NCBI GenBank assembly: GCA_963920705.1
Contig: OY987238.1
Coordinates: forward strand, 744,001 to 808,000
Direction: 5' to 3'
Source: Odiellus spinosus
Taxonomy: Eukaryota > Arthropoda > Arachnida > Opiliones > Phalangiidae
DNA length: 64,000 bases
Below, piece by piece: positions 13,869 through 63,420 of the stretch; position 1 is the first letter of the stretch; every line of letters starts with the position of its first letter. Below the pieces are notes generated by a model, which saw only the letters and a program-made list of their open reading frames with translations, made no database searches and was not told the DNA's origin. Both the position numbers and the translations under genes were made by a program.

Positions 13869-14974
13869 AAGTATAGATTCACAAATTTCCCAAGTATAGA
13901 TCCCCCAATTATCCAAGTATAGATTCACAAATTTTCAAAGTATAGATTCACAAATTTTCCAAGTATAGATTCACATATTTCCCAAGAATAGATTCACAAA
14001 TTTCCCAAGTATAGATTCACAAATTTTCCAAGTATAGATTCACAAATTTTCCAAGTATAGATTCACAAATTTTCCAAGTATAGATTCACAAATTTCCCAA
14101 GTATAGATTCTCAAATTTCCCAAGTATAGATCCACCAATTTCCCAAGTATAGATTCACATATTTCCCAAGTATAGATTCACAAATTTCCCATGTATAGAT
14201 TCACAAATTTTCCAAGTATAGATTCACAAATTTTCCAAGTATAGATTCACAAATTTCCCAAGCATAGATTCACAAATTTTCCAAGTATAGATTCACAAAT
14301 TTCCCAAGCATAGATTCATAAATTTCCCAAGTAGAGATTCACAAATTTCCAAGTATAGATTCACAAATTTCCCAAGTATAGATACACAAATTTGCAAAGT
14401 ATAGATCCACCAATTTCCCAAGTATAGATCCACCAATTTCCCAAGTATAGATTCACAAATTTGCAAAGTATAGATCCACCAATTTCCCAAGTATAGATCC
14501 ACCAATTTCCCAAGTATAGATTCACAAATTTTCCAAGTATAGATTCACAAATTTTCCAAGTATAGATTCACAAATTTCCCAAATATAGATTCACAAATTT
14601 TCCAAGTATAGATTCACAAATTTCCCAAGTATAGATTCACAAATTTCCGAAGCATAGATTCACAAATTTCCCAAGTATAGATCGACAAATTTCCCAAGTT
14701 TAGATTCACAAATTTTCCAAGTATAGATTCACAAATTTTCCAAGTATAGATTCACAAATTTCCCAAGTATAGATTCACAAATTTCCCAAGTATAGATCCA
14801 CCAATTTCCCAAATATATCCACATATTTCCCAAGTATTCAATTCAATTCAATTCAATTTAATTAAGTCCAACTTTGATACACTTCAGGTTATACAGTTCA
14901 AATATAACACATATTTCCCAAGTATAGATTCACATATTTCCCAAGTTTAGATTCACAAATTTTCCAAGTATAGA
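13869..14974 (+). repeat. Transition segment to the insert-bearing HOR family
   Basis: Satellite units with a different variant order from 1-13,868. Features are GATCCCCC near 13,900, CATATTT units, a 22-bp unit near 14,350, the GATACAC marker at 14,381 and a GATCGAC unit near 14,683. The first non-satellite insert follows. Marker-to-insert distance is 456 bp, one unit less than the 479 bp seen in seven other copies. On the - strand 14,293-14,505 is open for 70 codons by chance; see rejected items. Confidence 0.85.
14837..14907 (+). repeat. Non-satellite insert, copy 1 (71 bp)
   Basis: Four TTCAA-type pentamers lead into TTTAATTAAG (containing the palindrome TTAATTAA), then GTCCAACTTTGATACAC, TTCAGGTTATACAG and TTCAAATATAA. 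It replaces the TAGATT of a unit between AAGTA and CACATATTTCCC. A 21-bp unit with AAATATATCC precedes it. Origin unknown; no coding potential. Confidence 0.95.
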
Positions 14975-15083
14975 TTCACAAATTTTCCAAGTATAGATTC
15001 ACAAATTTCCCAAGTATAGATTCACAAATTTCCCAAGTATAGATCCACCAATTTCCCAAATATATCCACATATTTCCCAAGTA

Positions 15084-15154
15084 TTCAATTCAATTCAATT
15101 CAATTTAATTAAGTCCAACTTTGATACACTTCAGGTTATACAGTTCAAATATAA
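15084..15154 (+). repeat. Non-satellite insert, copy 2 (71 bp)
   Basis: Same 71 bases as the copy 247 bp upstream, within the same flanks (AAATATATCCACATATTT before, CACATATTTCCC after). Only 176 bp of satellite separate the two, far closer than any other pair, which points to a local duplication of one insert with its flank. Confidence 0.95.
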
Positions 15155-15949
15155 CACATATTTCCCAAGTATAGATTCACATATTTCCCAAGTATAGATT
15201 CACAAATTTCCGAAGCATAGATTCACAAATTTTCCAAGTATAGATTCACAAATTTTCCAAGTATAGATTCACAAATTTCCCAAATATAGATTCACAAATA
15301 TCCCAAGTATAGATTCCAAAATTTTCCAAGTATAGATTCACAAATTTCCCAAGCATAGATTCATAAATTTCCCAAGTAGAGATTCACAAATTTTCCAAGT
15401 ATAGATTCACAAATTTCCCAAGTATAGATACACAAATTTGCAAAGTATAGATCCACCAATTTCCCAAGTATAGATCCACCAATTTCCCAAGTATAGATTC
15501 ACAAATTTGCAAAGTATAGATCCACCAATTTCCCAAGTATAGATCCACCAATTTCCCAAGTATAGATTCACAAATTTTCCAAGTATAGATTCACAAATTT
15601 TCCAAGTATAGATTCACAAATTTCCCAAATATAGATTCACAAATTTTCCAAGTATAGATTCACAAATTTCCCAAGTATAGATTCACAAATTTCCGAAGCA
15701 TAGATTCACAAATTTTCCAAGTATAGATTGACAAATTTCCCAAGTATAGATTCACAAATTTTCCAAGTATAGATTCACAAATTTCCCAAGTATAGATTCA
15801 CAAATTTTCAAAGTTTAGATTCACAAATTTTCCAAGTATAGATTCACAAATTTTCCAAGTATAGATTCACAAATTTCCCAAGTATAGATTCACAAATTTC
15901 CCAAGTATAGATCCACCAATTTCAAATATATACACATATTTCCCAAGTA

Positions 15950-16020
15950 TTCAATTCAATTCAATTCAATTTAATTAAGTCCAACTTTGATACACTTCAG
16001 GTTATACAGTTCAAATATAA
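15950..16020 (+). repeat. Non-satellite insert, copy 3 (71 bp)
   Basis: Full 71-bp form. Its upstream flank is the variant TTTCAAATATATACAC, shared only with the copy at 20,122, which is its partner in the 4,172-bp duplication. Confidence 0.95.
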
Positions 16021-19000
16021 CACATATTTCCCAAGTATAGATTCACATATTTCCCAAGTATAGATTCACAAATTTCCGAAGCATAGATTCACAAATTTTC
16101 CAAGTATAGATTCACAAATTTTCCAAGTATAGATTCACAAATTTCCCAAATATAGATTCACAAATTTCCCAAGTATAGATTCCAAAATTTTCCAAGTATA
16201 GATTCACAAATTATCCAAGTATAGATTCACAAATTATCCAAGTATAGATTCACAAATTTTCAAAGTATAGATTCACAAATTTTCCAAGTATAGATTCACA
16301 AATTTCCCAAGTATAGATTCACAAATTTCCCAAGTATAGATTCACAAATTTTCCAAGTATAGATTCACAAATTTTTCAAGTATAGATTCACAAATTTTCC
16401 AAGTATAGATTCACAAATTTCCCAAGTATAGATTCACAAATTTCCCAAGTATAGATCCACCAATTTCCCAAGTATAGATTCACCAATTTCCCAAGTATAG
16501 ATTCACAAATTTCCCAAGTATAGATTCACAAATTTCCGAAGTATAGATTCACAAATTTTCCAAGTATAGATTCACAAATTTTCCAAGTATAGATTCACAA
16601 ATTTCCCAAGCATAGATTCACAAATTTTCCAAGTTTAGATTCACAAATTTCCCAAGTAGAGATTCACAAATTTTCCAAGTATAGATTCACAAATTTCCCA
16701 AGTATAGATTCAAAAATTTGCAAAGTATAGATCCACCAATTTCCCAAGTATAGATCCACCAATTTCCCAAGTATAGATTCACAAATTTTCCAAGTATAGA
16801 TTCACAAATTTTCCAAGTATAGATTCACAAATTTCCCAAATATAGATTCACAAATTTTCCAAGTATAGATTCACAAATTTCCCAAGTATAGATCCACCAA
16901 TTTCCCAAGTATAGATTCACCAATTTCCCAAGTATAGATTCACAAATTTCCCAAGTATAGATTCACAAATTTCCGAAGTATAGATTCACAAATTTCCCAA
17001 GTAGAGATTCACAAATTTTCCAAGTATAGATTCACAAATTTCCCAAGTATAGATTCACAAATTTGCTAAGTATAGATCCACCAATTTCCCAAGTATAGAT
17101 CCACCAATTTCCCAAGTATAGATCCACCAATTTCCCAAGTATAGATTCACAAATTTTCCAAGTATAGATCCACCAATTTCCCAAGTATAGATTCACAAAT
17201 TTTCCAAGTATAGATTCACAAATTTCCCAAATATAGATTCACAAATTTTCCAAGTATAGATTCACAAATTTCCCAAATATAGATTCACAAATTTCCCAAG
17301 TATAGATTCCAAAATTTTCCAAGTATAGATTCACAAATTATCCAAGTATAGATTCACAAATTATCCAAGTATAGATTCACAAATTTTCAAAGTATAGATT
17401 CACAAATTTTCCAAGTATAGATTCACAAATTTCCCAAGTATAGATTCACAAATTTTCCAAGTATAGATTCACAAATTTTTCAAGTATAGATTCACAAATT
17501 TTCCAAGTATAGATTCACAAATTTCCCAAGTATAGATTCACAAATTTCCCAAGTATAGATCCACCAATTTCCCAAGTATAGATTCACCAATTTCCCAAGT
17601 ATAGATTCACAAATTTCCCAAGTATAGATTCACAAATTTCCGAAGTATAGATTCACAAATTTTCCAAGTATAGATTCACAAATTTTCCAAGTATAGATTC
17701 ACAAATTTCCCAAGCATAGATTCACAAATTTTCCAAGTATAGATTCACAAATTTCCCAAGTAGAGATTCACAAATTTTCCAAGTATAGATTCACAAATTT
17801 CCCAAGTATAGATTCAAAAATTTGCAAAGTATAGATCCACCAATTTCCCAAGTATAGATCCACCAATTTCCCAAGTATAGATTCACAAATTTTCCAAGTA
17901 TAGATTCACAAATTTTCCAAGTATAGATTCACAAATTTCCCAAATATAGATTCACAAATTTTCCAAGTATAGATTCACAAATTTCCCAAGTATAGATCCA
18001 CCAATTTCCCAAGTATAGATTCACCAATTTCCCAAGTATAGATTCACAAATTTCCCAAGTATAGATTCACAAATTTCCGAAGTATAGATTCACAAATTTC
18101 CCAAGTAGAGATTCACAAATTTTCCAAGTATAGATTCACAAATTTCCCAAGTATAGATTCACAAATTTGCTAAGTATAGATCCACCAATTTCCCAAGTAT
18201 AGATCCACCAATTTCCCAAGTATAGATCCACCAATTTCCCAAGTATAGATTCACAAATTTTCCAAGTATAGATCCACCAATTTCCCAAGTATAGATTCAC
18301 AAATTTTCCAAGTATAGATTCACAAATTTTCCAAGTATAGATTCACAAATTTCCCAAATATAGATTCACAAATTTTCCAAGTATAGATTCACAAATTTCC
18401 CAAATATAGATTCACAAATTTCCCAAGTATAGATTCCAAAATTTTCCAAGTATAGATTCACAAATTATCCAAGTATAGATTCACAAATTATCCAAGTATA
18501 GATTCACAAATTTTCAAAGTATAGATTCACAAATTTTCCAAGTATAGATTCACAAATTTCCCAAGTATAGATTCACAAATTTCCCAAGTATAGATTCACA
18601 AATTTGCAAAGTATAGATCCACCAATTTCCCAAGTATAGATCCACCAATTTCCCAAGTATAGATTCACAAATTTTCCAAGTATAGATTCACAAATTTTCC
18701 AAGTATAGATTCACAAATTTCCCAAGTATAGATTCACAAATTTCCCAAGTATAGATCCACCAATTATCCAAGTATAGATTCCCAAATTTTCAAAGTATAG
18801 ATTCACAAATTTTCCAAGTATAGATTGACATATTTCCCAAGTATAGATTCACAAATTTCCCAAGTATAGATTCACAAATTTTCCAAGTATAGATTCACAA
18901 ATTTTCCAAGTATAGATTCACAAATTTTCCAAGTATAGATTCACAAATTTCCCAAGTATAGATTCTCAAATTTCCCAAGTATAGATCCACCAATTTCCCA

Positions 19001-19255
19001 AGTATAGATTCACATATTTCCCAAGTATAGATTCACAAATTTCCCAAGTATAGATTCACAAATTTCCCAAGTATAGATTCACAAATTTTCCAAGTATAGA
19101 TTCACAAATTTTCCAAGTATAGATTCACAAATTTCCCAAGCATAGATTCACAAATTTTCCAAGTATAGATTCACAAATTTCCCAAGTATAGATTCACAAA
19201 TTTCCCAAGTATAGATCCACCAATTTCCCAAATATATCCACATATTTCCCAAGTA

Positions 19256-19326
19256 TTCAATTCAATTCAATTCAATTTAATTAAGTCCAACTTTGATACA
19301 CTTCAGGTTATACAGTTCAAATATAA
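19256..19326 (+). repeat. Non-satellite insert, copy 4 (71 bp)
   Basis: Partner of the copy at 15,084 in the 4,172-bp duplication, with identical length and AAATATATCCACATATTT upstream flank. Confidence 0.95.
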
Positions 19327-20121
19327 CACATATTTCCCAAGTATAGATTCACATATTTCCCAAGTATAGATTCACAAATTTCCGAAGCATAGATTCACAA
19401 ATTTTCCAAGTATAGATTCACAAATTTTCCAAGTATAGATTCACAAATTTCCCAAATATAGATTCACAAATATCCCAAGTATAGATTCCAAAATTTTCCA
19501 AGTATAGATTCACAAATTTCCCAAGCATAGATTCATAAATTTCCCAAGTAGAGATTCACAAATTTTCCAAGTATAGATTCACAAATTTCCCAAGTATAGA
19601 TACACAAATTTGCAAAGTATAGATCCACCAATTTCCCAAGTATAGATCCACCAATTTCCCAAGTATAGATTCACAAATTTGCAAAGTATAGATCCACCAA
19701 TTTCCCAAGTATAGATCCACCAATTTCCCAAGTATAGATTCACAAATTTTCCAAGTATAGATTCACAAATTTTCCAAGTATAGATTCACAAATTTCCCAA
19801 ATATAGATTCACAAATTTTCCAAGTATAGATTCACAAATTTCCCAAGTATAGATTCACAAATTTCCGAAGCATAGATTCACAAATTTTCCAAGTATAGAT
19901 TGACAAATTTCCCAAGTATAGATTCACAAATTTTCCAAGTATAGATTCACAAATTTCCCAAGTATAGATTCACAAATTTTCAAAGTTTAGATTCACAAAT
20001 TTTCCAAGTATAGATTCACAAATTTTCCAAGTATAGATTCACAAATTTCCCAAGTATAGATTCACAAATTTCCCAAGTATAGATCCACCAATTTCAAATA
20101 TATACACATATTTCCCAAGTA

Positions 20122-20192
20122 TTCAATTCAATTCAATTCAATTTAATTAAGTCCAACTTTGATACACTTCAGGTTATACAGTTCAAATATAA
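20122..20192 (+). repeat. Non-satellite insert, copy 5 (71 bp)
   Basis: Partner of the copy at 15,950, sharing its unusual TTTCAAATATATACAC flank. Confidence 0.95.
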
Positions 20193-23100
20193 CACATATT
20201 TCCCAAGTATAGATTCACATATTTCCCAAGTATAGATTCACAAATTTCCGAAGCATAGATTCACAAATTTTCCAAGTATAGATTCACAAATTTTCCAAGT
20301 ATAGATTCACAAATTTCCCAAATATAGATTCACAAATTTCCCAAGTATAGATTCCAAAATTTTCCAAGTATAGATTCACAAATTATCCAAGTATAGATTC
20401 ACAAATTATCCAAGTATAGATTCACAAATTTTCAAAGTATAGATTCACAAATTTTCCAAGTATAGATTCACAAATTTCCCAAGTATAGATTCACAAATTT
20501 CCCAAGTATAGATTCACAAATTTTCCAAGTATAGATTCACAAATTTTTCAAGTATAGATTCACAAATTTTCCAAGTATAGATTCACAAATTTCCCAAGTA
20601 TAGATTCACAAATTTCCCAAGTATAGATCCACCAATTTCCCAAGTATAGATTCACCAATTTCCCAAGTATAGATTCACAAATTTCCCAAGTATAGATTCA
20701 CAAATTTCCGAAGTATAGATTCACAAATTTTCCAAGTATAGATTCACAAATTTTCCAAGTATAGATTCACAAATTTCCCAAGCATAGATTCACAAATTTT
20801 CCAAGTTTAGATTCACAAATTTCCCAAGTAGAGATTCACAAATTTTCCAAGTATAGATTCACAAATTTCCCAAGTATAGATTCAAAAATTTGCAAAGTAT
20901 AGATCCACCAATTTCCCAAGTATAGATCCACCAATTTCCCAAGTATAGATTCACAAATTTTCCAAGTATAGATTCACAAATTTTCCAAGTATAGATTCAC
21001 AAATTTCCCAAATATAGATTCACAAATTTTCCAAGTATAGATTCACAAATTTCCCAAGTATAGATCCACCAATTTCCCAAGTATAGATTCACCAATTTCC
21101 CAAGTATAGATTCACAAATTTCCCAAGTATAGATTCACAAATTTCCGAAGTATAGATTCACAAATTTCCCAAGTAGAGATTCACAAATTTTCCAAGTATA
21201 GATTCACAAATTTCCCAAGTATAGATTCACAAATTTGCTAAGTATAGATCCACCAATTTCCCAAGTATAGATCCACCAATTTCCCAAGTATAGATCCACC
21301 AATTTCCCAAGTATAGATTCACAAATTTTCCAAGTATAGATCCACCAATTTCCCAAGTATAGATTCACAAATTTTCCAAGTATAGATTCACAAATTTCCC
21401 AAATATAGATTCACAAATTTTCCAAGTATAGATTCACAAATTTCCCAAATATAGATTCACAAATTTCCCAAGTATAGATTCCAAAATTTTCCAAGTATAG
21501 ATTCACAAATTATCCAAGTATAGATTCACAAATTATCCAAGTATAGATTCACAAATTTTCAAAGTATAGATTCACAAATTTTCCAAGTATAGATTCACAA
21601 ATTTCCCAAGTATAGATTCACAAATTTTCCAAGTATAGATTCACAAATTTTTCAAGTATAGATTCACAAATTTTCCAAGTATAGATTCACAAATTTCCCA
21701 AGTATAGATTCACAAATTTCCCAAGTATAGATCCACCAATTTCCCAAGTATAGATTCACCAATTTCCCAAGTATAGATTCACAAATTTCCCAAGTATAGA
21801 TTCACAAATTTCCGAAGTATAGATTCACAAATTTTCCAAGTATAGATTCACAAATTTTCCAAGTATAGATTCACAAATTTCCCAAGCATAGATTCACAAA
21901 TTTTCCAAGTATAGATTCACAAATTTCCCAAGTAGAGATTCACAAATTTTCCAAGTATAGATTCACAAATTTCCCAAGTATAGATTCAAAAATTTGCAAA
22001 GTATAGATCCACCAATTTCCCAAGTATAGATCCACCAATTTCCCAAGTATAGATTCACAAATTTTCCAAGTATAGATTCACAAATTTTCCAAGTATAGAT
22101 TCACAAATTTCCCAAATATAGATTCACAAATTTTCCAAGTATAGATTCACAAATTTCCCAAGTATAGATCCACCAATTTCCCAAGTATAGATTCACCAAT
22201 TTCCCAAGTATAGATTCACAAATTTCCCAAGTATAGATTCACAAATTTCCGAAGTATAGATTCACAAATTTCCCAAGTAGAGATTCACAAATTTTCCAAG
22301 TATAGATTCACAAATTTCCCAAGTATAGATTCACAAATTTGCTAAGTATAGATCCACCAATTTCCCAAGTATAGATCCACCAATTTCCCAAGTATAGATC
22401 CACCAATTTCCCAAGTATAGATTCACAAATTTTCCAAGTATAGATCCACCAATTTCCCAAGTATAGATTCACAAATTTTCCAAGTATAGATTCACAAATT
22501 TTCCAAGTATAGATTCACAAATTTCCCAAATATAGATTCACAAATTTTCCAAGTATAGATTCACAAATTTCCCAAATATAGATTCACAAATTTCCCAAGT
22601 ATAGATTCCAAAATTTTCCAAGTATAGATTCACAAATTATCCAAGTATAGATTCACAAATTATCCAAGTATAGATTCACAAATTTTCAAAGTATAGATTC
22701 ACAAATTTTCCAAGTATAGATTCACAAATTTCCCAAGTATAGATTCACAAATTTCCCAAGTATAGATTCACAAATTTGCAAAGTATAGATCCACCAATTT
22801 CCCAAGTATAGATCCACCAATTTCCCAAGTATAGATTCACAAATTTTCCAAGTATAGATTCACAAATTTTCCAAGTATAGATTCACAAGTTTCCCAAGTA
22901 TAGATTCACAAATTTCCCAAGTATAGATCCACCAATTATCCAAGTATAGATTCCCAAATTTTCAAAGTATAGATTCACAAATTTTCCAAGTATAGATTCA
23001 CATATTTCCCAAGTATAGATTCACAAATTTCCCAAGTATAGATTCACAAATTTTCCAAGTATAGATTCACAAATTTTCCAAGTATAGATTCACAAATTTT

Positions 23101-23910
23101 CCAAGTATAGATTCACAAATTTCCCAAGTATAGATTCTCAAATTTCCCAAGTATAGATCCACCAATTTCCCAAGTATAGATTCACATATTTCCCAAGTAT
23201 AGATTCACAAATTTCCCAAGTATAGATTCACAAATTTCCCAAGTATAGATTCACAAATTTTCCAAGTATAGATTCACAAATTTTCCAAGTATAGATTCAC
23301 AAATTTCCCAAGCATAGATTCACAAATTTTCCAAGTATAGATTCACAAATTTCCCAAGCATAGATTCATAAATTTCCCAAGTAGAGATTCACAAATTTTC
23401 CAAGTATAGATTCACAAATTTCCCAAGTATAGATACACAAATTTGCAAAGTATAGATCCACCAATTTCCCAAGTATAGATCCACCAATTTCCCAAGTATA
23501 GATTCACAAATTTGCAAAGTATAGATCCACCAATTTCCCAAGTATAGATCCACCAATTTCCCAGGTATAGATTCACAAATTTTCCAAGTATAGATTCACA
23601 AATTTTCCAAGTATAGATTCACAAATTTCCCAAATATAGATTCACAAATTTTCCAAGTATAGATTCACAAATTTCCCAAGTATAGATTCACAAATTTCCG
23701 AAGCATAGATTCACAAATTTCCCAAGTATAGATCCACAAATTTCCCAAGTATAGATTGACAAATTTCCCAAGTATAGATTCACAAATTTTCCAAGTATAG
23801 ATTCACAAATTTTCCAAGTATAGATTCACAAATTTCCCAAGTATAGATTCACAAATTTCCCAAGTATAGATCCACCAATTTCCCAAATATATCCACATAT
23901 TTCCCAAGTA

Positions 23911-23981
23911 TTCAATTCAATTCAATTCAATTTAATTAAGTCCAACTTTGATACACTTCAGGTTATACAGTTCAAATATAA
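23911..23981 (+). repeat. Non-satellite insert, copy 6 (71 bp)
   Basis: 71-bp form, exactly 479 bp downstream of the GATACAC marker at 23,432, with the AAATATATCCACATATTT flank of copies 1, 2, 4 and 7. Confidence 0.95.
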
Positions 23982-25813
23982 CACATATTTCCCAAGTATA
24001 GATTCACATATTTCCCAAGTATAGATTCACAAATTTCCGAAGCATAGATTCACAAATTTTCCAAGTATAGATTCACAAATTTTCCAAGTATAGATTCACA
24101 AATTTCCCAAATATAGATTCACAAATTTCCCAAGTATAGATTCCAAAATTTTCCAAGTATAGATTCACAAATTATCCAAGTATAGATTCACAAATTATCC
24201 AAGTATAGATTCACAAATTTTCAAAGTATAGATTCACAAATTTTCCAAGTATAGATTCACAAATTTCCCAAGTATAGATTCACAAATTTCCCAAGTATAG
24301 ATTCACAAATTTTCCAAGTATAGATTCACAAATTTTTCAAGTATAGATTCACAAATTTTCCAAGTATAGATTCACAAATTTCCCAAGTATAGATTCACAA
24401 ATTTCCCAAGTATAGATCCACCAATTTCCCAAGTATAGATTCACCAATTTCCCAAGTATAGATTCACAAATTTCCCAAGTATAGATTCACAAATTTCCGA
24501 AGTATAGATTCACAAATTTTCCAAGTATAGATTCACAAATTTTCCAAGTATAGATTCACAAATTTCCCAAGCATAGATTCACAAATTTTCCAAGTATAGA
24601 TTCACAAATTTCCCAAGCAGAGATTCACAAATTTTCCAAGTATAGATTCACAAATTTCCCAAGTATAGATTCAAAAATTTGCAAAGTATAGATCCACCAA
24701 TTTCCCAAGTATAGATCCACCAATTTCCCAAGTATAGATTCACAAATTTTCCAAGTATAGATTCACAAATTTTCCAAGTATAGATTCACAAATTTCCCAA
24801 GTATAGATTCACAAATTTTCCAAGTATAGATTCACAAATTTCCCAAGTATAGATCCACCAATTATCCAAGTATAGATTCACAAATTTTCAAAGTATAGAT
24901 TCACAAATTTTCCAAGTATAGATTCACATATTTCCCAAGTATAGATTCACAAATTTCCCAAGTATAGATTCACAAATTTTCCAAGTATAGATTCACAAAT
25001 TTTCCAAGTATAGATTCACAAATTTTCCAAGTATAGATTCACAAATTTCCCAAGTATAGATTCTCAAATTTCCCAAGTATAGATCCACCAATTTCCCAAG
25101 TATAGATTCACATATTTCCCAAGTATAGATTCACAAATTTCCCAAGTATAGATTCACAAATTTCCCAAGTATAGATTCACAAATTTTCCAAGTATAGATT
25201 CACAAATTTTCCAAGTATAGATTCACAAATTTCCCAAGCATAGATTCACAAATTTTCCAAGTATAGATTCACAAATTTCCCAAATATAGATACACAAATT
25301 TGCAAAGTATAGATCCACCAATTTCCCAAGTATAGATCCACCAATTTCCCAAGTATAGATTCACAAATTTGCAAAGTATAGATCCACCAATTTCCCAAGT
25401 ATAGATCCACCAATTTCCCAAGTATAGATTCACAAATTTTCCAAGTATAGATTCCCAAATTTCCCAAATATAGATTCACAAATTTTCCAAGTATAGATTC
25501 ACAAATTTCCCAAGTATAGATTCACAAATTTCCGAAGCATAGATTCACAAATTTCCCAAGTATAGATCCACAAATTTCCCAAGTATAGATTGACAAATTT
25601 CCCAAGTATAGATTCACAAATTTTCCAAGTATAGATTCACAAATTTCCCAAGTATAGATTCACAAATTTTCAAAGTTTAGATTCACAAATTTTCAAAGTA
25701 TAGATTCACAAATTTTCAAAGTATAGATTCACAAATTTCCCAAGTATAGATTCACAAATTTTCCAAGTATAGATCCACCAATTTCCCAAATATATCCACA
25801 TATTTCCCAAGTA

Positions 25814-25884
25814 TTCAATTCAATTCAATTCAATTTAATTAAGTCCAACTTTGATACACTTCAGGTTATACAGTTCAAATATAA
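25814..25884 (+). repeat. Non-satellite insert, copy 7 (71 bp)
   Basis: 71-bp form with the AAATATATCCACATATTT flank. It is the last copy before the inverted block and the last with this flank type. Confidence 0.95.
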
Positions 25885-26316
25885 CACATATTTCCCAAGT
25901 ATAGATTCACATATTTCCCAAGTATAGATTCACAAATTTCCGAAGCATAGATTCACAAATTTTCCAAGTATAGATTCACAAATTTTCCAAGTAGAGATTC
26001 ACAAATTTCCCAAATATAGATTCACAAATTTCCCAAGTATAGATTCCAAAATTTTCCAAGTATAGATTCACAAATTATCCAAGTATAGATTCACAAATTA
26101 TCCAAGTATAGATTCACAAATTTTCAAAGTATAGATTCACAAATTTTCCAAGTATAGATTCACAAATTTCCCAAGTATAGATTCACAAATTTCCCAAGTA
26201 TAGATTCACAAATTTTCCAAGTATAGATTCACAAATTTCCCAAGTATAGATCCACCAATTTCCCAAGTATAGATTCACCAATTTCCCAAGTATAGATTCA
26301 CAAATTTCCCAAGTAT

Positions 26317-26867
26317 ACCTGGAAAATTTGTGAATCTATACTTGGGAAATTTGTGAATCTATACTTGGGAAATATGTGAATCTATACTTGGAAAATTTGT
26401 GAATCTATACTTTGAAAATTTGTGAATCTATACTTGGATAATTGGTGGATCTATACTTGGGAAATTTGTGAATCTATACTTGGAAAATTTGTGAATCTAT
26501 ATTTGGGAAATTTGTGAATCTATACTTGGAAAATTTGTGAATCTATACTTGGAAAATTTGTGAATCTATACTTGGGAAATTGGTGGATCTATACTTGGGA
26601 AATTGGTGGATCTATACTTTGCAAATTTTTGAATCTATACTTGGGAAATTTGTGAATCTATACTTGGAAAATTTGTGAATCTCTGCTTGGGAAATTTGTG
26701 AATCTATTCTTGGAAAATTTGTGAATCTATGCTTTGGAAATTTGTGAATCTATACTTGGAAAATTTGTGAATCTATACTTGGAAAATTTGTGAATCTATA
26801 CTTTGGAAATTGGTGAATCTATACTTGGGAAATTGGTGGATCTATACTTGGGAAATTTGTGAATCTA
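26317..26867 (-). repeat. Inverted satellite block (~24 units)
   Basis: Between about 26,317 and 26,867 the + strand carries the reverse complement of the unit (TTTGTGAATCTATACTTGG). The left junction reads AAGTATA then CCTGGAAAATTTG. The right junction reads GAATCTA then CTTTCCGAAGTATAG. Reverse-complemented, its unit order follows about 24,395-24,978: CAGAG unit, GATTCAAAAATTTGCAAAG, paired GATCCACC, ATTATCC, TTTTCAAAG, CATATTT. It lacks about two units relative to that segment. It is the only orientation switch in the window. Confidence 0.93.
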
Positions 26868-29000
26868 CTTTCCGAAGTATAGATTCACAAATTTCCCAAG
26901 TAGAGATTCACAAATTTTCCAAGTATAGATTCACAAATTTCCCAAGTATAGATTCACAAATTTGCAAAGTATAGATCCACCAATTTCCCAAGTATAGATC
27001 CACCAATTTCCCAAGTATAGATTCACAAATTTTCCAAGTATAGATCCACCAATTTCCCAAGTATAGATTCACAAATTTTCCAAGTATAGATTCACAAATT
27101 TCCCAAATATAGATTCACAAATTTTCCAAGTATAGATTCACAAATTTCCCAAGTATAGATTCACAAATTTCCGAAGTATAGATTAACAAATTTCCCAAGT
27201 ATAGATCCACAAATTTCCCAAGTATAGATTGACAAATTTCCCAAGTATAGATTCACAAATTTTCCAAGTATAGATTCACAAATTTCCCAAGTATAGATTC
27301 ACAAATTTTCCAAGTATAGATTCACAAATTTTCCAAGTATAGATTCACAAATTTCCCAAGTATAGATCCACCAATTTCCCAAGTATAGATTCACCAATTT
27401 CCCAAGTATAGATTCACAAATTTCCCAAGTATAGATTCACAAATTTCCCAAATATAGATTCACAAATTTTCCAAGTATAGATTCACAAATTTCCCAAGTA
27501 TAGATCCACCAATTTCCCAAGTATAGATTCACCAATTTCCCAAGTATAGATTCACAAATTTCCCAAGTATAGATTCACAAATTTCCGAAGTATAGATTCA
27601 CAAATTTCCCAAGTATAGATTCACAAATTTCCCAAGTATAGATTCACAAATTTGCAAAGTATAGATCCACCAATTTCCCAAGTATAGATTCACAAATTTT
27701 CCAAGTATAGATCCACCAATTTCCCAAGTATAGATTCACAAATTTTCCAAGTATAGATTCACAAATTTTCCAAGTATAGATTCACAAATTTCCCAAATAT
27801 AGATTCACAAATTTTCCAAGTATAGATTCACAAATTTCCCAAGTATAGATTCACAAATTTCCGAGGTATAGATCCACAAATTTCCCAAGTATAGATTGAC
27901 AAATTTCCCAAGCATAGATTCACAAATTTTCCAAGTATAGATTCACAAATTTTCCAAGTATAGATTCACAAATTTCCCAAGTATAGATCCACAAATTTTC
28001 CAAGTATAGATTCACCAATTTCCCAAGTATAGATTCACAAATTTCCCAAGTATAGATTCACAAATTTCCGAAGTATAGATTCACAAATTTCCCAAGTAGA
28101 GATTCACAAATTTTCCAAGTATAGATTCACAAATTTCCCAAGTATAGATTCACAAATTTGCAAAGTATAGATCCACCAATTTCCCAAGTATAGATCCACC
28201 AATTTCCCAAGTATAGATTCACAAATTTTCCAAGTATAGATTCACAAATTTTCCAAGTATAGATTGACAAATTTCCCAAGTTAAGATTCACAAATTTTCC
28301 AAGTATAGATTCACAAATTTCCCAAGTATAGATTCACAAATTTTCAAAGTTTAGATTCACAAATTTTCCAAGTATAGATTCACAAATTTTCTAAGTATAG
28401 ATTCACAAATTTCCCAAGCAGAGATTCACAAATTTTCCAAGTATAGATTCACAAATTTCCCAAGTATAGATTCAAAAATTTGCAAAGTATAGATCCACCA
28501 ATTTCCCAAGTATAGATCCACCAATTTCCCAAGTATAGATTCACAAATTTTCCAAGTATAGATTCACAAATTTCCCAAGTATAGATCCACCAATTATCCA
28601 AGTATAGATTCACAAATTTTCAAAGTATAGATTCACAAATTTTCCAAGTATAGATTCACAAATTTCCCAAGTATAGATTCACAAATTTCCCAAGTATAGA
28701 TTCACAAATTTCCCAAGTATAGATCCACCAAATTCCCAAGTATAGATTCACATATTTCCCAAGTATAGATTCACAAATTTCCCAAGTATAGATTCACAAA
28801 TTTCCCAAGTATAGATTCACAAATTTTCCAAGTATAGATTCACAAATTTCCCAAGTATAGATTCACAAATTTCCCAAGTATAGATTCACAAATTTTCCAA
28901 GTATAGATTCACAAATTTCCCAAGTATAGATTCACAAATTTCCCAAGTATAGATTCACAAATTTCCCAAGTATAGATCCACCAATTTCCCAAGTATAGAT
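26868..29000 (+). repeat. Insert-free satellite stretch after the inversion
   Basis: Normal + orientation units resume with TTTCCGAAG. The order includes repeated GATCCACC/GATTCACC pairs, a GATTAAC unit near 27,183, TTCCGAGG near 27,865, AGTTAAG near 28,281 and a second CAGAG unit near 28,427. The unit GATCCACCAAATTCCC near 28,725 recurs near 34,845. No insert and no gene. Confidence 0.85.
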
Positions 29001-29729: not shown

Positions 29730-29800
29730 TTCAATTCAATTCAATTCAATTTAATTAAGTCCAACTTTGATACACTTCAGGTTATACAGTTCAAATATAA
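29730..29800 (+). repeat. Non-satellite insert, copy 8 (71 bp)
   Basis: 71-bp form with the new upstream flank TTTCACAAATATATCCACC and the downstream 2-bp deletion (CACATTTCCC). Confidence 0.95.
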
Positions 29801-31308: not shown

Positions 31309-31374
31309 TTCAATTCAATTCAATTTAATTAAGTCCAACTTTGATACACTTCAGGTTATACAGTTCAAATATAA
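31309..31374 (+). repeat. Non-satellite insert, copy 9 (66 bp)
   Basis: One TTCAA pentamer fewer than the 71-bp form; the rest is unchanged. It shares the CACATTTCCC deletion with copies 8 and 10. Confidence 0.95.
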
Positions 31375-34300: not shown

Positions 34301-35779
34301 TTCCCAAGTATAGATCCACCAATTTCCCAAGTATAGATTCACAAATTTTCCAAGTATAGATTCACAAATTTTCCAAGTATAGATTCACAAATTTCCCAAA
34401 TATAGATTCACAAATTTTCCAAGTATAGATTCACAAATTTCCCAAGTATAGATTCACTAATTTCCGAAGTATAGATTCAAAAATTTCCCAAGTATAGATC
34501 CACAAATTTCCCAAGTATATATTGACAAATTTCCCAAGTATAGATTCTCAAATTTTCCAAGTATAGATTCTCAAATTTCCCAAGTATAGATTCACAAATT
34601 TTCCAAGTATAGATTCACAAATTTTCCAAGTATAGATTCACAAATTTTCCAAGTATAGATTCACAAATTTCCCAAGTATAGATTCACAAATTTCCCAAGT
34701 ATAGATCCACCAATTATCCAAGTATAGATTCACAAATTTTCAAAGTATAGATTCACAAATTTTCCAAGTATAGATTCACAAATTTCCCAAGTATAGATTC
34801 ACAAATTTCCCAAGTATAGATTCACAAATTTCCCAAGTATAGATCCACCAAATTCCCAAGTATAGATTCACATATTTCCCAAGTATAGATTCACAAATTT
34901 CCCAAGTATAGATTCACAAATTTCCCAAGTATAGATTCACAAATTTTCCAGTATAGATTCACAAATTTCCCAAGTATAGATTCACAAATTTCCCAAGTAT
35001 AGATTCACAAATTTTCCAAGTATAGATTCACAAATTTCCCAAGTATAGATTCACAAATTTCCCAAGTATAGATTCACAAATTTCCCAAGTATAGATCCAC
35101 CAATTTTCCAAGTATAGATTCACAAATTTTTCAAGTATAGATTCACAAATTTCCCAAGCATAGATTCACAAATTTTCCAAGTATAGATTCACAAATTTCC
35201 CAAGCATAGATTCATAAATTTCCCAAGTAGAGATTCACAAATTTTCCAAGTATAGATTCACAAATTTCCCAAGTATAGATACACAAATTTGCAAAGTATA
35301 GATCCACCAATTTCCCAAGTATAGATCCACCAATTTCCCAAGTATAGATTCACAAATTTTCCAAGTATAGATTCACAAATTTTCCAAGTATAGATTCACA
35401 AATTTCCCAAATATAGATTCACAAAGTTTCCAAGTATAGATTCACAAATTTCCCAAGTATAGATTCACAAATTTTCAAAGTATAGATTCACAAATTTTCC
35501 AAGTATAGATTCACAAATTTCCCAAATATAGATTCACAAATTTCCCAAGTATAGATTCCAAAATTTTCCAAGTATAGATTCACAAATTATCCAAGTATAG
35601 ATTCACAAATTTCCCAAGTATAGATTCACAAATTTTCAAAGTTTAGATTCACAAATTTTCCAAGTATAGATTCACAAATTTTCCAAGTATAGATTCACAA
35701 ATTTCCCAAGTATAGATTCACAAATTTCCCTAGTATAGATCCACCAATTTCACAAATATATCCACCAATTTCCCAAGTA

Positions 35780-35845
35780 TTCAATTCAATTCAATTTAAT
35801 TAAGTCCAACTTTGATACACTTCAGGTTATACAGTTCAAATATAA
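35780..35845 (+). repeat. Non-satellite insert, copy 10 (66 bp)
   Basis: Same 66-bp form and same CACATTTCCC downstream deletion as the copy at 31,309. Confidence 0.95.
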
Positions 35846-36454
35846 CACATTTCCCAAGTATAGATTCACATATTTCCCAAGTATAGATTCACAAATTTCC
35901 GAAGCATAGATTCACAAATTTTCCAAGTATAGATTCACAAATTTTCCAAGTATAGATTCACAAATTTCCCAAATATAGATTCACAAATTTCCCAAGTATA
36001 GATTCCAAAATTTTCCAAGTATAGATTCACAAATTATCCAAGTATAGATTCACAAATTATCCAAGTATAGATTCACAAATTTTCAAAGTATAGATTCACA
36101 AATTTTCCAAGCATAGATTCACAAATTTCCCAAGTATAGATTCACAAATTTCCCAAGTATAGATCCACCAATTTCCCAAGTATAGATTTACCAATTTCCC
36201 AAGTATAGATTCACAAATTTCCCAAGTATAGATTCACAAATTTCCGAAGTATAGATTCACAAATTTTCCAAGTATAGATTCACAAATTTTCCAAGTATAG
36301 ATTCACAAATTTTCCAAGTATAGATTCTCAAATTTCCCAAGTATAGATTCACAAATTTCCCAAGTAGAGATTCACAAATTTTCCAAGTATAGATTCACAA
36401 ATTTCCCAAGTATAGATTCACAAATTTGCAAAGTATAGATCCACCAATTTCCCA

Positions 36455-37810
36455 AGTATAGATCCACCAATTTCCCAAGTATAGATTCACAAATTTTCCA
36501 AGTATAGATTCACAAATTTTCCAAGTATAGATTCACAAATTTCCCAAATATAGATTCACAAATTTCCCAAGTATAGATTCACAAATTTCCCAAGTATAGA
36601 TCCACCAATTTCCCAAGTATAGATTCACATATTTCCCAAGTATAGATTCACAAATTTCCCAAGTATAGATTCACAAATTTCCCAAGTATAGATTCACAAA
36701 TTTTCCAAGTATAGATTCACAAATTTTCCAAGTATAGATTCACAAATTTCCCAAGCATAGATTCACAAATTTTCCAAGTATAGATTCACAAATTTCCCAA
36801 GCATAGATTCATAAATTTCCCAAGTAGAGATTCACAAATTTTCCAAGTATAGATTCACAAATTTCCCAAGTATAGATACACAAATTTGCAAAGTATAGAT
36901 CCACCAATTTCCCTATTATAGATCCACCAATTTCCCAAGTATAGATTCACAAATTTTCCAAGTATAGATTCACAAATTTTCCAAGTATAGATTCACAAAT
37001 TTCCCAAATATAGATTCACAAATTTTCCAAGTATAGATTCACAAATTTCTCAAGTATAGATTCACAAATTTCCGAAGTATAGATTCACAAATTTCCCAAG
37101 TATAGATCCACAAATTTCCCAAGTATAGATTGACAAATTTCCCAAGTTAAGATTCACAAATTTTCCAAGTATAGATTCACAAATTTCCCAAGTATAGATT
37201 CACAAATTTTCAAAGTTTAGAATCACAAATTTTCCAAGTATAGATTCACAAATTTTCCAAGTATAGATTCACAAATTTCCCAAGTATAGATTCACAAATT
37301 TCCCAAGTATAGATCCACCAATTTCACAAATATATCCACCAATTTCCCAAGTATTCAATTCAATTCAATTCAATTTAATTTAATTAAGTCCAACTTTGAT
37401 ACACTTCAGGTTATACAGTTCAAATATAACACATATTTCCCAAGTATAGATTCACATATTTCCCAAGTATAGATTCACAAATTTCCGAAGCATAGATTCA
37501 CAAATTTTCCAAGTATAGATTCACAAATTTTCCAAGTATAGATTCACAAATTTCCCAAATATAGATTCACAAATTTCCCAAGTATAGATTCCAAAATTTT
37601 CCAAGTATAGATTCACAAATTATCCAAGTATAAATTCACAAATTATCCAAGTATAGATTCACAAATTTTCAAAGTATAGATTCACAAATTTTCCAAGTAT
37701 AGATTCACAAATTTCCCAAGTATAGATTCACAAATTTCCCAAGTATAGATTCACAAATTTTCCAAGTATAGATTCACAAATTTTCCAAGTATAGATTCAC
37801 AAATTTTCCA
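36455..37810 (+). repeat. 1,356-bp tandem duplication, copy A
   Basis: Repeats at 37,811 with offset 1,356 bp up to the insert and 1,361 after it, because copy B's insert is 5 bp longer. Shared rare units include CCCTATTATAG (36,911 and 38,267) and AGTTAAG. Differences include TTTAGAATCAC near 37,218, absent in copy B. Confidence 0.85.
37354..37429 (+). repeat. Non-satellite insert, copy 11 (76 bp)
   Basis: 76-bp form: a second TTTAA step gives TTTAATTTAATTAAG. The downstream flank is the intact CACATATTTCCC. It lies 479 bp after the GATACAC marker at 36,875. Confidence 0.95.
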
Positions 37811-39171
37811 AGTATAGATTCACCAATTTCCCAAGTATAGATTCACAAATTTTCCAAGTATAGATTCACAAATTTTCCAAGTAAAGATTCACAAATTTCC
37901 CAAATATAGATTCACAAATTTCCCAAGTATAGATTCACAAATTTCCCAAGTATAGATCCACCAATTTCCCAAGTATAGATTCACATATTTCCCAAGTATA
38001 GATTCACAAATTTCCCAAGTATAGATTCACAAATTTCCCAAGTATAGATTCACAAATTTTCCAAGTATAGATTCACAAATTTTCCAAGTATAGATTCACA
38101 AATTTCCCAAGCATAGATTCACAAATTTTCCAAGTATAGATTCACAAATTTCCCAAGCATAGATTCATAAATTTCCCAAGTAGAGATTCACAAATTATCC
38201 AAGCATAGATTCACAAATTTCCCAAGTATAGATACACAAATTTGCAAAGTATAGATCCACCAATTTCCCTATTATAGATCCACCAATTTCCCAAGTATAG
38301 ATTCACAAATTTTCCAAGTATAGATTCACAAATTTTCCAAGTATAGATTCACAAATTTCCCAAATATAGATTCACAAATTTTCCAAGTATAGATTCACAA
38401 ATTTCTCAAGTATAGATTCACAAATTTCCGAAGTATAGATTCACAAATTTCCCAAGTATAGATCCACAAATTTCCCAAGTATAGATTGACAAATTTCCCA
38501 AGTTAAGATTCACAAATTTTCCAAGTATAGATTCACAAATTTCCCAAGTATAGATTCACAAATTTTCAAAGTTTAGATTCACAAATTTTCCAAGTATAGA
38601 TTCACAAATTTTCCAAGTATAGATTCACAAATTTCCCAAGTATAGATTCACAAATTTCCCAAGTATAGATCCACCAATTTCACAAATATATCCACCAATT
38701 TCCCAAGTATTCAATTCAATTCAATTCAATTCAATTTAATTTAATTAAGTCCAACTTTGATACACTTCAGGTTATACAGTTCAAATATAACACATATTTC
38801 CCAAGTATAGATTCACATATTTCCCAAGTATAGATTCACAAATTTCCGAAGCATAGATTCACAAATTTTCCAAGTATAGATTCACAAATTTTCCAAGTAT
38901 AGATTCACAAATTTCCCAAATATAGATTCACAAATTTCCCAAGTATAGATTCCAAAATTTTCCAAGTATAGATTCACAAATTATCCAAGTATAAATTCAC
39001 AAATTATCCAAGTATAGATTCACAAATTTTCAAAGTATAGATTCACAAATTTTCCAAGTATAGATTCACAAATTTCCCAAGTATAGATTCACAAATTTCC
39101 CAAGTATAGATTCACAAATTTTCCAAGTATAGATTCACAAATTTTCCAAGTATAGATTCACAAATTTTCCA
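37811..39171 (+). repeat. 1,356-bp tandem duplication, copy B
   Basis: Second copy of 36,455-37,810. It carries GTAAAG near 37,883 and ATTATCCAAGCATAG near 38,195 as private changes. Its insert gained one further TTCAA pentamer. Confidence 0.85.
38710..38790 (+). repeat. Non-satellite insert, copy 12 (81 bp)
   Basis: Longest form: five leading TTCAA-type pentamers and the doubled TTTAA. It lies 479 bp after the GATACAC marker at 38,231. Confidence 0.95.
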
Positions 39172-42100
39172 AGTATAGATTCACAAATTTCCCAAGTATA
39201 GATTCACAAATTTCCCAAGTATAGATCCACCAATTTCCCAAGTATAGATTCACCAATTTCCCAAGTATAGATTCACAAATTTCCCAAGTATAGATTCACA
39301 AATTTCCGAAGTATAGATTCACAAATTTCCCAAGCATAGATTCACAAATTTTCCAAGTATTGATTCATAAATTTCCCAAGTAGAGATTCACAAATTTTCC
39401 AAGTATAGATTCACAAATTTCCCAAGTATAGATTCACAAATTTGCAAAGTATAGATCCACCAATTTCCCAAATATAGATCCACCAATTTCCCAAGTATAT
39501 ATTGACAAATTTCCCAAGTATAGATTCACAAATTTTCCAAGTATAGATTCTCAAATTTCCCAAGTATAGATTCACAAATTTTCCAAGTATATATTCACAA
39601 ATTTTCCAAGTATAGATTCACAAATTTTCCAAGTATAGATTCACAAATTTCCCAAGTATAGATTCACAAATTTCCCAAGTATAGATCCACCAATTATCCA
39701 AGTATAGATTCACAAATTTTCAAAGTATAGATTCACAAATTTTCCAAGTATAGATTCACAAATTTCCCAAGTATAGATCCACCAATTTCCCAAGTATAGA
39801 TTCACATATTTCCCAAGTATAGATTCACAAATTTCCCAAGTATAGATTCACAAATTTCCCAAGTATAGATTCACAAATTTTCCAAGTATAGATTCACAAA
39901 TTTTCCAAGTATAGATTCACAAATTTCCCAAGCATAGATTCACAAATTTCCCAAGCATAGATTCAGAAATTTCCCAAGTAGAGATTCACAAATTTTCCAA
40001 GTATAGATTCACAAATTTCCCAAGTATAGATACACAAATTTGCAAAGTATAGATCCACCAATTTCCCAAGTATAGATCCACCAATTTCCCAAGTATAGAT
40101 TCACAAATTTTCCAAGTATAGATTCACAAATTTTCCAAGTATAGATTCACAAATTTCCCAAATATAGATTCACAAATTTTCCAAGTATAGATTCACAAAT
40201 TTCCCAAGTATAGATTCACAAATTTCCGAAGCATAGATTCACAAATTTCCCAAGTATAGATCCACAAATTTCCCAAGTATAGATTGACAAATTTCCCAAG
40301 TATAGATTCACAAATTTTCCAAGTATAGATTCACAAATTTTCAAAGTTTAGATTCACAAATTTTCCAAGTATAGATTCACAAATTTTCCAAGTATTGATT
40401 CACAAATTTACCAAGTATAGATTCACAAATTTCCCAAGTATAGATCCACCAATTTCACAAATATATCCACCAATTTCCCAAGTATTCAATTCAATTCAAT
40501 TTAATTAAGTCCAACTTTGATACACTTCAGGTTATACAGTTCAAATATAACACATATTTCCCAAGTATAGATTCACATATTTCCCAAGTATAGATTCACA
40601 AATTTCCGAAGCATAGATTCACAAATTTTCCAAGTATAGATTCACAAATTTTCCAAGTATAGATTCACAAATTTCCCAAATATAGATTCACAAATTTCCC
40701 AAGTATAGATTCCAAAATTTTCCAAGTATAGATTCACAAATTATCCAAGTATAGATTCACAAATTATCCAAGTATAGATTCACAAATTTTCAAAGTATAG
40801 ATTCACAAATTTTCCAAGTATAGATTCACAAATTTCCCAAGTATAGATTCACAAATTTTCCAAGTATAGATTCACAAATTTCCCAAGCATAGATTCACAA
40901 ATTTTCCAAGTATAGATTCATAAATTTCCCAAGTAGAGATTCACAAATTTTCCAAGTATAGATTCACAAATTTCCCAAGTATAGATTCACAAATTTGCAA
41001 AGTATAGATCCACCAATTTCCCAAGTATAGATCCACCAATTTCCCAAGTATATATTGACAAATTTCCCAAGTATAGATTCACAAATTTTCCAAGTATAGA
41101 TTCTCAAATTTCCCAAGTATAGATTCACAAATTTTCCAAGTATAGATTCACAAATTTTCCAAGTATAGATTCACAAATTTTCCAAGTATAGATTCACAAA
41201 TTTCCCACGTATAGATTCACAAATTTCCCAAGTATAGATCCACCAATTATCCAAGTATAGATTCACAAATTTTCAAAGTATAGATTCACAAATTTTCCAA
41301 GTATAGATTCACAAATTTCCCAAGTATAGATCCACCAATTTCCCAAGTATAGATTCACATATTTCCCAAGTATAGATTCACAAATTTCCCAAGTATAGAT
41401 TCACAAATTTCCCAAGTATAGATTCACAAATTTTCCAAGTATAGATTCACAAATTTTCCAAGTATAGATTCACAAATTTCCCAAGCATAGATTCACAAAT
41501 TTTCCAAGTATAGATTCACAAATTTCCCAAGCATAGATTCATAAATTTCCCAAGTAGAGATTCACAAATTTTCCAAGTATAGATTCACAAATTTCCCAAG
41601 TATAGATACACAAATTTGCAAAGTATAGATCCACCAATTTCCCAAGTATAGATCCACCAATTTCCCAAGTATAGATTCACAAATTTTCCAAGTATAGATT
41701 CACAAATTTCCGAAGCATAGATTCACAAATTTTCCAAGTATAGATTCACAAATTTTCCAAGTATAGATTCACAAATTTCCCAAATATAGATTCACAAATT
41801 TCCCAAGTATAGATTCCAAAATTTTCCAAGTATAGATTCACAAATTATCCAAGTATAGATTCACAAATTATCCAAGTATAGATTCACAAATTTTCAAAGT
41901 ATAGATTCACAAATTTTCCAAGTATAGATTCACAAATTTCCCAAGTATAGATTCACAAATTTCCCAAGTATAGATCCACCAATTTCCCAAGTATAGATTT
42001 ACCAATTTCCCAAGTATAGATTCACAAATTTCCCAAGTATAGATTCACAAATTTCCGAAGTATAGATTCACAAATTTTCCAAGTATAGATTCACAAATTT

Positions 42101-42199
42101 TCCAAGTATAGATTCACAAATTTTCCAAGTATAGATTCTCAAATTTCCCAAGTATAGATTCACAAATTTCCCAAGTAGAGATTCACAAATTTTCCAAGT
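39172..42199 (+). repeat. Insert-bearing HORs, mixed order
   Basis: Satellite units with one insert (40,485) and GATACAC markers near 40,029 and 41,605. Local features are GTATTGATTC near 39,360 and 40,395, GTATATATTGAC near 39,497 and 41,049, and a CpG in CCCACGTATAG near 41,207. The GATTCCAAAATTTTCC marker recurs at 40,710 and 41,814. No gene. Confidence 0.85.
40485..40550 (+). repeat. Non-satellite insert, copy 13 (66 bp)
   Basis: 66-bp form but with the intact CACATATTTCCC downstream flank, unlike the other 66-bp copies. It lies 456 bp after the marker at 40,029 (one unit short of the usual 479). Confidence 0.95.
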
Positions 42200-43279
42200 A
42201 TAGATTCACAAATTTCCCAAGTATAGATTCACAAATTTCCCAAGTATAGATTCACAAATTTGCAAAGAATAGATCCACCAATTTCCCAAGTATAGATCCA
42301 CCAATTTCCCAAGTATAGATTCACAAATTTTCCAAGTATAGATTCACAAATTTTCCAAGTATAGATTCACAAATTTCCCAAATATAGATTCACAAATTTC
42401 CCAAGTATAGATTCACAAATTTACCAAGTATAGATCCACCAATTTCCCAAGTATAGATTCACATATTTCCCAAGTATAGATTCACAAATTTCCCAAGTAT
42501 AGATTCACAAATTTCCCAAGTATAGATTCACAAATTTTCCAAGTATAGATTCACAAATTTTCCAAGTATAGATTCACAAATTTCCCAAGCATAGATTCAC
42601 AAATTTTCCAAGTATAGATTCACAAATTTCCCAAGCATAGATTCATAAATTTCCCAAGTAGAGATTCACAAATTTTCCAAGTATAGATTCACAAATTTCC
42701 CAAGTATAGATACACAAATTTGCAAAGTATAGATCCACCAATTTCCCTATTATAGATCCACCAATTTCCCAAGTATAGATTCACAAATTTTCCAAGTATA
42801 GATTCACAAATTTTCCAAGTATAGATTCACAAATTTCCCAAATATAGATTCACAAATTTTCCAAGTATAGATTCACAAATTTCTCAAGTATAGATTCACA
42901 AATTTCCGAAGCATAGATTCACAAATTTCCCAAGTATAGATCCACAAATTTCCCAAGTATAGATTGACAAATTTCCCAAGTATAGATTCACAAATTTTCC
43001 AAGTATAGATTCACAAATTTCCCAAGTATAGATTCACAAATTTTCAAAGTTTAGATTCACAAATTTTCCAAGTATAGATTCACAAATTTTCCAAGTATAG
43101 ATTCACAAATTTCCCAAGTATAGATTCACAAATTTCCCAAGTATAGATCCACCAATTTCACAAATATATCCACCAATTTCCCAAGTATTCAATTCAATTC
43201 AATTCAATTTAATTTAATTAAGTCCAACTTTGATACACTTCAGGTTATACAGTTCAAATATAACACATATTTCCCAAGT
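42200..43279 (+). repeat. 1,080-bp tandem duplication, copy A
   Basis: Line-by-line comparison with 43,280-44,359 shows one difference (42,476 A against 43,556 G). It carries CAAAGAATAG, CCCTATTATAG, the GATACAC marker at 42,709 and a 76-bp insert. Near identity implies a very recent duplication, or an assembly artefact. Confidence 0.93.
43188..43263 (+). repeat. Non-satellite insert, copy 14 (76 bp)
   Basis: 76-bp form, 479 bp after the GATACAC marker at 42,709, identical to the copy 1,080 bp downstream. Confidence 0.95.
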
Positions 43280-44359
43280 ATAGATTCACAAATTTCCCAA
43301 GTATAGATTCACAAATTTCCCAAGTATAGATTCACAAATTTGCAAAGAATAGATCCACCAATTTCCCAAGTATAGATCCACCAATTTCCCAAGTATAGAT
43401 TCACAAATTTTCCAAGTATAGATTCACAAATTTTCCAAGTATAGATTCACAAATTTCCCAAATATAGATTCACAAATTTCCCAAGTATAGATTCACAAAT
43501 TTACCAAGTATAGATCCACCAATTTCCCAAGTATAGATTCACATATTTCCCAAGTGTAGATTCACAAATTTCCCAAGTATAGATTCACAAATTTCCCAAG
43601 TATAGATTCACAAATTTTCCAAGTATAGATTCACAAATTTTCCAAGTATAGATTCACAAATTTCCCAAGCATAGATTCACAAATTTTCCAAGTATAGATT
43701 CACAAATTTCCCAAGCATAGATTCATAAATTTCCCAAGTAGAGATTCACAAATTTTCCAAGTATAGATTCACAAATTTCCCAAGTATAGATACACAAATT
43801 TGCAAAGTATAGATCCACCAATTTCCCTATTATAGATCCACCAATTTCCCAAGTATAGATTCACAAATTTTCCAAGTATAGATTCACAAATTTTCCAAGT
43901 ATAGATTCACAAATTTCCCAAATATAGATTCACAAATTTTCCAAGTATAGATTCACAAATTTCTCAAGTATAGATTCACAAATTTCCGAAGCATAGATTC
44001 ACAAATTTCCCAAGTATAGATCCACAAATTTCCCAAGTATAGATTGACAAATTTCCCAAGTATAGATTCACAAATTTTCCAAGTATAGATTCACAAATTT
44101 CCCAAGTATAGATTCACAAATTTTCAAAGTTTAGATTCACAAATTTTCCAAGTATAGATTCACAAATTTTCCAAGTATAGATTCACAAATTTCCCAAGTA
44201 TAGATTCACAAATTTCCCAAGTATAGATCCACCAATTTCACAAATATATCCACCAATTTCCCAAGTATTCAATTCAATTCAATTCAATTTAATTTAATTA
44301 AGTCCAACTTTGATACACTTCAGGTTATACAGTTCAAATATAACACATATTTCCCAAGT
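43280..44359 (+). repeat. 1,080-bp tandem duplication, copy B
   Basis: Second copy; carries CAAGTGTAG at 43,551-43,559 as the one difference found. It ends at the insert at 44,268-44,343 and its flank, after which GATTCACATATTT replaces GATTCACAAATTT. Confidence 0.93.
44268..44343 (+). repeat. Non-satellite insert, copy 15 (76 bp), the last one
   Basis: 76-bp form, 479 bp after the GATACAC marker at 43,789. No further insert occurs in the remaining 19.6 kb. Confidence 0.95.
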
Positions 44360-63300: not shown

Positions 63301-63420
63301 AGTATAGATTCACAAATTTTCCAAGTATAGATTCACAAATTTCCCAAGTATAGATACACAAATTTCCCAAGTATAGATCCACCAATTTCCCAAGTATAGA
63401 TTCACATATTTCCCAAGTAT

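Follow-up and report, generated by a model that had tools for sequence, protein, structure and literature searches.

In a 64,000-nucleotide stretch of Odiellus spinosus DNA (contig OY987238.1, positions 744,001 to 808,000; the whole stretch is here referred to as "the window"), we found that fifteen copies of a short insert, embedded in a 23-bp satellite array, are most likely the descendants of one insertion. The insert very probably joined the array a single time, and its fifteen copies appear to be passengers of block duplication in place. This reading of the aligned sequences rests on the phase, orientation and flanking context that all copies share, on an identical core, on exact duplications that carry the insert, and on insert-free sites elsewhere in the array; no evidence contradicting a single origin with co-duplication was found. 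The window is one 23-bp tandem array from end to end (positions 1–64,000, + strand; Tandem Repeats Finder, period 23) with the unit AGTATAGATTCACAAATTTCCCA. An earlier note on this DNA had reported "fifteen copies" of the insert. The count stands as a number of copies, while fifteen separate events are not what the copies seem to represent.

All fifteen start coordinates of that note proved exact, and all copies lie on the + strand. The given length range of 66–81 bp was also reproduced, with eight copies of 71 bp, three of 66 bp, three of 76 bp and one of 81 bp. The last 51 bp of the insert form a core, TTTAATTAAG...TTCAAATATAA, which occurs 15 times on the + strand with 0 mismatches and is absent from the − strand of the window even with up to 15 mismatches allowed. 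For the first 20 core bases with at most 3 mismatches, 15 matches were found against 0.02 expected (100 shuffles). Differences between copies are confined to the (TTCAA)n run at the left, which consists of 3–5 TTCAA units, joined in 4 copies by an extra TTTAA. The insert bears no resemblance to the satellite unit, as had been noted: a local alignment of the 71-bp insert with the unit scores 7, the shuffle mean is 9.3, and 479 of 500 shuffles score 7 or more. Moreover, it is the only foreign sequence in the 64 kb at the resolution used, at which foreign pieces of a few bases escape. We defined a stretch as poorly fitting if no rotation of the unit, on the + or − strand, matched it at 15 or more of 23 positions, and obtained 42 such stretches, of which 15 are the inserts; the other 27 we read as variant or truncated monomers or as the end of an inverted block at 26,309–26,876.

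The copies sort by position into two types according to their left flank, here referred to as q and T. Type q comprises the seven copies at 14.8–25.9 kb, all of 71 bp: 14,837–14,907, 15,084–15,154, 15,950–16,020, 19,256–19,326, 20,122–20,192, 23,911–23,981 and 25,814–25,884. Type T comprises the eight copies at 29.7–44.3 kb. Three of these have a right flank 2 bp short (CACATTTCCCA), namely 29,730–29,800 (71 bp), 31,309–31,374 (66 bp) and 35,780–35,845 (66 bp). The remaining five are 37,354–37,429 (76 bp, with an extra TTTAA), 38,710–38,790 (81 bp, with an extra TTTAA and an extra TTCAA), 40,485–40,550 (66 bp), 43,188–43,263 (76 bp, extra TTTAA, with a right flank unlike that of most copies) and 44,268–44,343 (76 bp, extra TTTAA). 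Classed by their length, the gap in the right flank and the left flank together, the copies fall into six forms. The sorting of q and T is perfect, with one switch along the array, a pattern matched by 1 of 20,000 label shuffles and expected of spread by local duplication. In addition, all 15 starts lie inside 29.4 kb, which was the case for 24 of 200,000 uniform placements. The gaps between copies are irregular, from 176 to 4,405 bp, and more than half of the window is insert-free.

The flanking context is shared by all copies. To the left of every insert (15/15) stands a variant monomer, AATATAT(C/A)CAC..., followed by AGTA, and all 15 inserts sit in one unit phase. To the right, the sequence is CACATATTTCCCA in 12 of the 15 copies and CACATTTCCCA in 3, with the pattern CACAT(AT)TTCCCA. 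The q monomer occurs seven times in the window, each time beside an insert. The T-type monomer is also found without an insert, directly followed by a CACATATTT monomer, at 15 sites in the region 56,293–63,940 (+ strand), which start at 56,293, 56,406, 56,956, 57,713, 57,826, 58,353, 58,512, 58,625, 59,081, 59,333, 60,135, 61,076, 61,189, 63,807 and 63,920. At all 15 the T-type monomer is followed by AGT[AG]TAGATTCACATATTT; this next monomer reads AGTATAGATTCACATATTT and in one case AGTGTAGATTCACATATTT. At 11 of the 15 sites the T monomer is letter for letter that of the T-type filled sites. The window thus contains one site in both its filled and its empty form. Since the insert-free versions persist at 56–64 kb, the insert seems later than the array, and for that reason it says little on the origin of the 23-bp unit. 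The earlier note had proposed the insert as the best handle on the array's origin; for the array's history it is indeed a good handle, because the insert tags the domain of 14.8–44.3 kb and shows duplication blocks directly.

These blocks can be read from exact repeats that run through the inserts, which measure 3,747, 814, 702, 702 and 596 bp. The largest is a block at 14,970–18,716 (+ strand) that is repeated exactly at 19,142–22,888, each copy with two inserts, so that the inserts at 19,256 and 20,122 are the counterparts of those at 15,084 and 15,950. The insert at 15,084 in turn lies 247 bp after that at 14,837, in a local duplication (exact over 258 bp). Another exact repeat, of 814 bp, occupies 42,477–43,290 and 43,557–44,370 on the + strand (together 42,477–44,370) at a distance of 1,080 bp, and each of its copies contains one insert. 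We relied on exact repeats and monomer contexts here, for the extents of pairwise flank alignments are uninformative in an array whose 23-bp units align everywhere. In the MAFFT alignment of the flanks, the far-right end (where the insert neighboring the copy at 14,837 faces satellite) and the far-left end (where the copy at 15,084 has the same problem) were not used.

A sequence of events consistent with these data would begin with one event, in which a DNA fragment of about 60–70 bp entered a monomer of a 23-bp array already in place, at ...AATATATCCACCAATTTCCCA AGTA|TAGATT|CACATATTT... In-place duplication by unequal exchange or replication-based repair would then have copied array blocks of a few hundred bp up to several kb, while the (TTCAA)n run would later have varied by slippage. 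The insert itself probably does nothing that array growth requires. One result qualifies this course: many pairs of copies have only short exact stretches in common, with a median of 162 bp and a minimum of 58 bp over the 105 pairs, so that much of the older block history is blurred by later recombination. The close crowding of the copies, some of which lie in exactly repeated blocks, might instead suggest that a mobile element inserted fifteen times independently, or that an assembly error multiplied the copies. We regard this as extremely unlikely, since independent insertions would not agree in orientation and phase as well as in flanking monomers and flank variants, and a simple assembly repeat would not produce six forms of the copy.

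How the insert first arrived is a separate question. The left flank ends at AGTA and the right flank restarts at CACATATTT; in a 23-bp array such a break may mean that 6 bp (TAGATT) were lost or that 17 bp (CACATATTTCCCAAGTA) were duplicated, and both shift the phase equally. We think it somewhat more probable that the first joining was an end-joining event with filler DNA and loss of TAGATT, and this fits the eight T-type copies, whose left monomer is that of 11 of the 15 empty sites. Some observations weigh against it. The 17-bp direct repeat CACATATTTCCCAAGTA flanks the insert in the seven q-type copies, which a target duplication would explain. Furthermore, the filler account requires a T monomer, a CACATATTT monomer and then exactly AGTATAGATTCACATATTTCCCA, an order found at only 4 of the 15 insert-free sites, and at those 4 the first CACATATTT-type monomer reads TTTGCCA, one base off. 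The alternative is retroposition on the − strand of a 5'-truncated long or short interspersed nuclear element (LINE or SINE) with a 17-bp target-site duplication, later co-amplified likewise; we consider it unlikely, though a serious candidate. All 17 bases of CACATATTTCCCAAGTA are common to the left and right flanks in 7 of the 15 copies, and the pentamer run of variable length lies at the insert end expected to carry a 3' tail, so that in reverse reading the insert closes with a (TTGAA)n microsatellite tail. This length-variable run at one end of the insert may equally be slippage of an ordinary run rather than a 3' tail. No terminal inverted repeats of 5–19 bp starting within 5 bp of the insert ends were found at up to 15% mismatch, as expected of a retroposon and unlike a short DNA transposon of the MITE kind. 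However, a 17-bp duplication looks like a 6-bp deletion in a 23-bp array, and in the other eight copies the left flank is CACCAATTT, as at the insert-free sites, so the 17-bp match may be a later conversion. Retroposition would also require a q monomer before the insertion and its subsequent replacement in the T lineage, whereas q is known in this window only with the insert (7/7). Nor was a relative found in the viral, prokaryotic and plasmid collections, a search that included no eukaryotic repeat library. As for a tRNA-like or other known RNA head, ARAGORN reported 0 genes and no Rfam family reached its gathering score in the window, and a truncated copy would lack such a head anyway. Should a known short transposon turn out to match, our view of the arrival would change more than our view of how the fifteen copies arose.

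Apart from its arrival, the insert could owe its multiplication to some property of its own. It may be a captured sequence-specific element (a bound protein's site, an origin or a boundary) that marks a functional sub-domain of the array and was multiplied with its core kept letter-perfect for that reason; we hold this to be highly improbable. Much the same low standing is given to the related proposal that the insert was retained because a protein binds it, as a CENP-B-like box, an origin or a boundary element, and was spread by selection or biased conversion. What speaks for binding is that 0 of the 51 core columns vary in 15/15 copies and the pentamer run does, while in the left flank 3 of the first 25 columns are variable (15 copies) and in the right flank of the 12 ungapped copies columns 1–50 include 2 variable ones and columns 51–100 another 8. 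But the variation on the left is mostly the difference between q and T, and none of the first 46 left columns varies among the eight T-type copies. On the right, the first 100 columns are invariant and 2 of the 50 after them are variable in a set of 10 copies, which leaves out those at 14,837 and 43,188, whose flanks look exchanged, as well as the three gapped copies. Given such invariance of the flanks in subsets, recent common descent and flank exchange suffice. We therefore rejected core invariance as proof of selection, for the flanks likewise carry few changes and the core has only 51 columns. The CENP-B box is TTCGNNNNANNCGGG. With the box in this form, the whole window contains 1 match with 2 mismatches, at 25,454, against 38.8 expected, and no CENP-B-like box with at most 2 mismatches overlaps any insert. 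When two insert copies (both strands in one case) and one flank were folded as DNA, no structure stood out from those of shuffled sequences, which again speaks against binding, as do the irregular spacing and the insert-free majority of the window described above. A further proposal makes the insert a hot spot of breakage or recombination that drives the duplication of its surroundings, and we judge this more doubtful still. Among exact repeats of at least 200 bp, the share of ends that lie no more than 115 bp from an insert is indeed slightly above the random level (60/458, or 0.131, against 0.103; another 26 ends were excluded because they fall inside inserts, where pentamer differences cut the exact matches). 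The excess is not significant, since 149 of 2,000 random placements are as high; for repeats of at least 400 bp, with 9 of 59 ends, 259 of 2,000 reach the observed value. In addition, exact repeats of similar size occur in the insert-free domains, up to 3,265 bp. The hot spot was rejected on the lack of significant end enrichment. The suggestion that the insert might lead to a specific bound protein thus gained little from the data, in which neither a fold beyond shuffles nor an Rfam family at gathering score, a CENP-B-like box in the insert or a significant excess of duplication ends near it was seen. We found no sign of a function of the insert's own, and what the array displays is ordinary satellite biology.

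Searches with the insert and the unit were made in several collections. Exact patterns from the insert, one of 31 bases and two of 24 bases, had no match in viral contigs, and a 24-base pattern had none in prokaryotic genome contigs. An exact pattern of the satellite unit was likewise without a match in viral contigs or genome contigs. With blastn, the 71-bp insert had no match among phages, and among plasmids it gave 6 weak records (E 0.01–0.5), each with less than 80% query coverage and each touching the pentamer run; we took them as chance matches. Seven Rfam matches at E ≤10 in 14,700–16,200 were discarded as well, all far below the gathering scores. The strings of the unit and the insert did not occur in a literature text search, and a search of the literature on 23-bp satellites identified no source among the titles and opening parts of abstracts.

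The array with its insert is a fresh example of satellite behavior that is already known. The growth of satellite arrays by unequal exchange, with higher-order repeats, is the standard Smith model (reviewed in PMC8122249). In-register block duplication of variant monomers, with a rare variant carried along by its block, is common to the arrays described there and to the present one; here, in contrast, the spreading variant bears a foreign stretch, so its copies are traceable. In the same source, the 500-bp pericentromeric repeat of Arabidopsis is described as proposed to have formed from half of a pAL1 unit and a foreign element (PMC8122249). It resembles our case in that a foreign piece was fused to a satellite unit and amplified together with it, but in Arabidopsis the composite serves as the repeat unit, whereas the copies here are spaced irregularly (176–4,405 bp). 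Foreign DNA within a satellite array is also described for Lathyrus sativus, where Ogre transposons lie inside the expanded arrays FabTR-51 and FabTR-52; the Ogre elements have long terminal repeats and protein-coding domains, unlike the insert of 66–81 bp in the window (PMC7004042). A unique tag in a satellite makes duplication events countable and orderable that would otherwise be hidden among near-identical repeats. The 64 kb thus offer a readable case, in which an apparently single insertion, two lineages of flanks, duplicated blocks and insert-free sites can be seen together. The insert may be useful for studying array turnover or for checking assemblies; no new mechanism is indicated.

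Decomposition of the window by wraparound alignment yielded, besides the 15 inserts, 2,760 monomers or pieces of monomers in 165 forms. Its G+C content is about 29.5% by base counts. It contains no open reading frame of at least 100 amino acids, no tRNA gene by ARAGORN and no Rfam family at gathering score, and the array appears to be a eukaryotic satellite. Because variant monomers recur across it in long ordered strings, the array has a higher-order block structure. This is regular in the insert-free domain 1–13,800, where identity reaches 0.95 at a lag of 49 units (1,127 bp) and exact repeats measure 1,745 and 1,656 bp. In another insert-free domain, an exact 3,265-bp repeat occupies 47,598–54,082, with copies at 47,598 and 50,818, which at a distance of 3,220 bp are in effect tandem.

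Two local features were also observed. At 26,309–26,876, a block of 568 bp lies in reverse orientation, the sole such block in the scan of poorly fitting stretches; its reverse complement is 98.4% identical to 24,436–24,989 over 554 bp, and it is therefore an inverted copy of that nearby block or of a close relative. At 58,353–58,500, monomer forms ending in CACATATTTCTTA follow in succession (three consecutive ones were seen), a small local expansion of one form.

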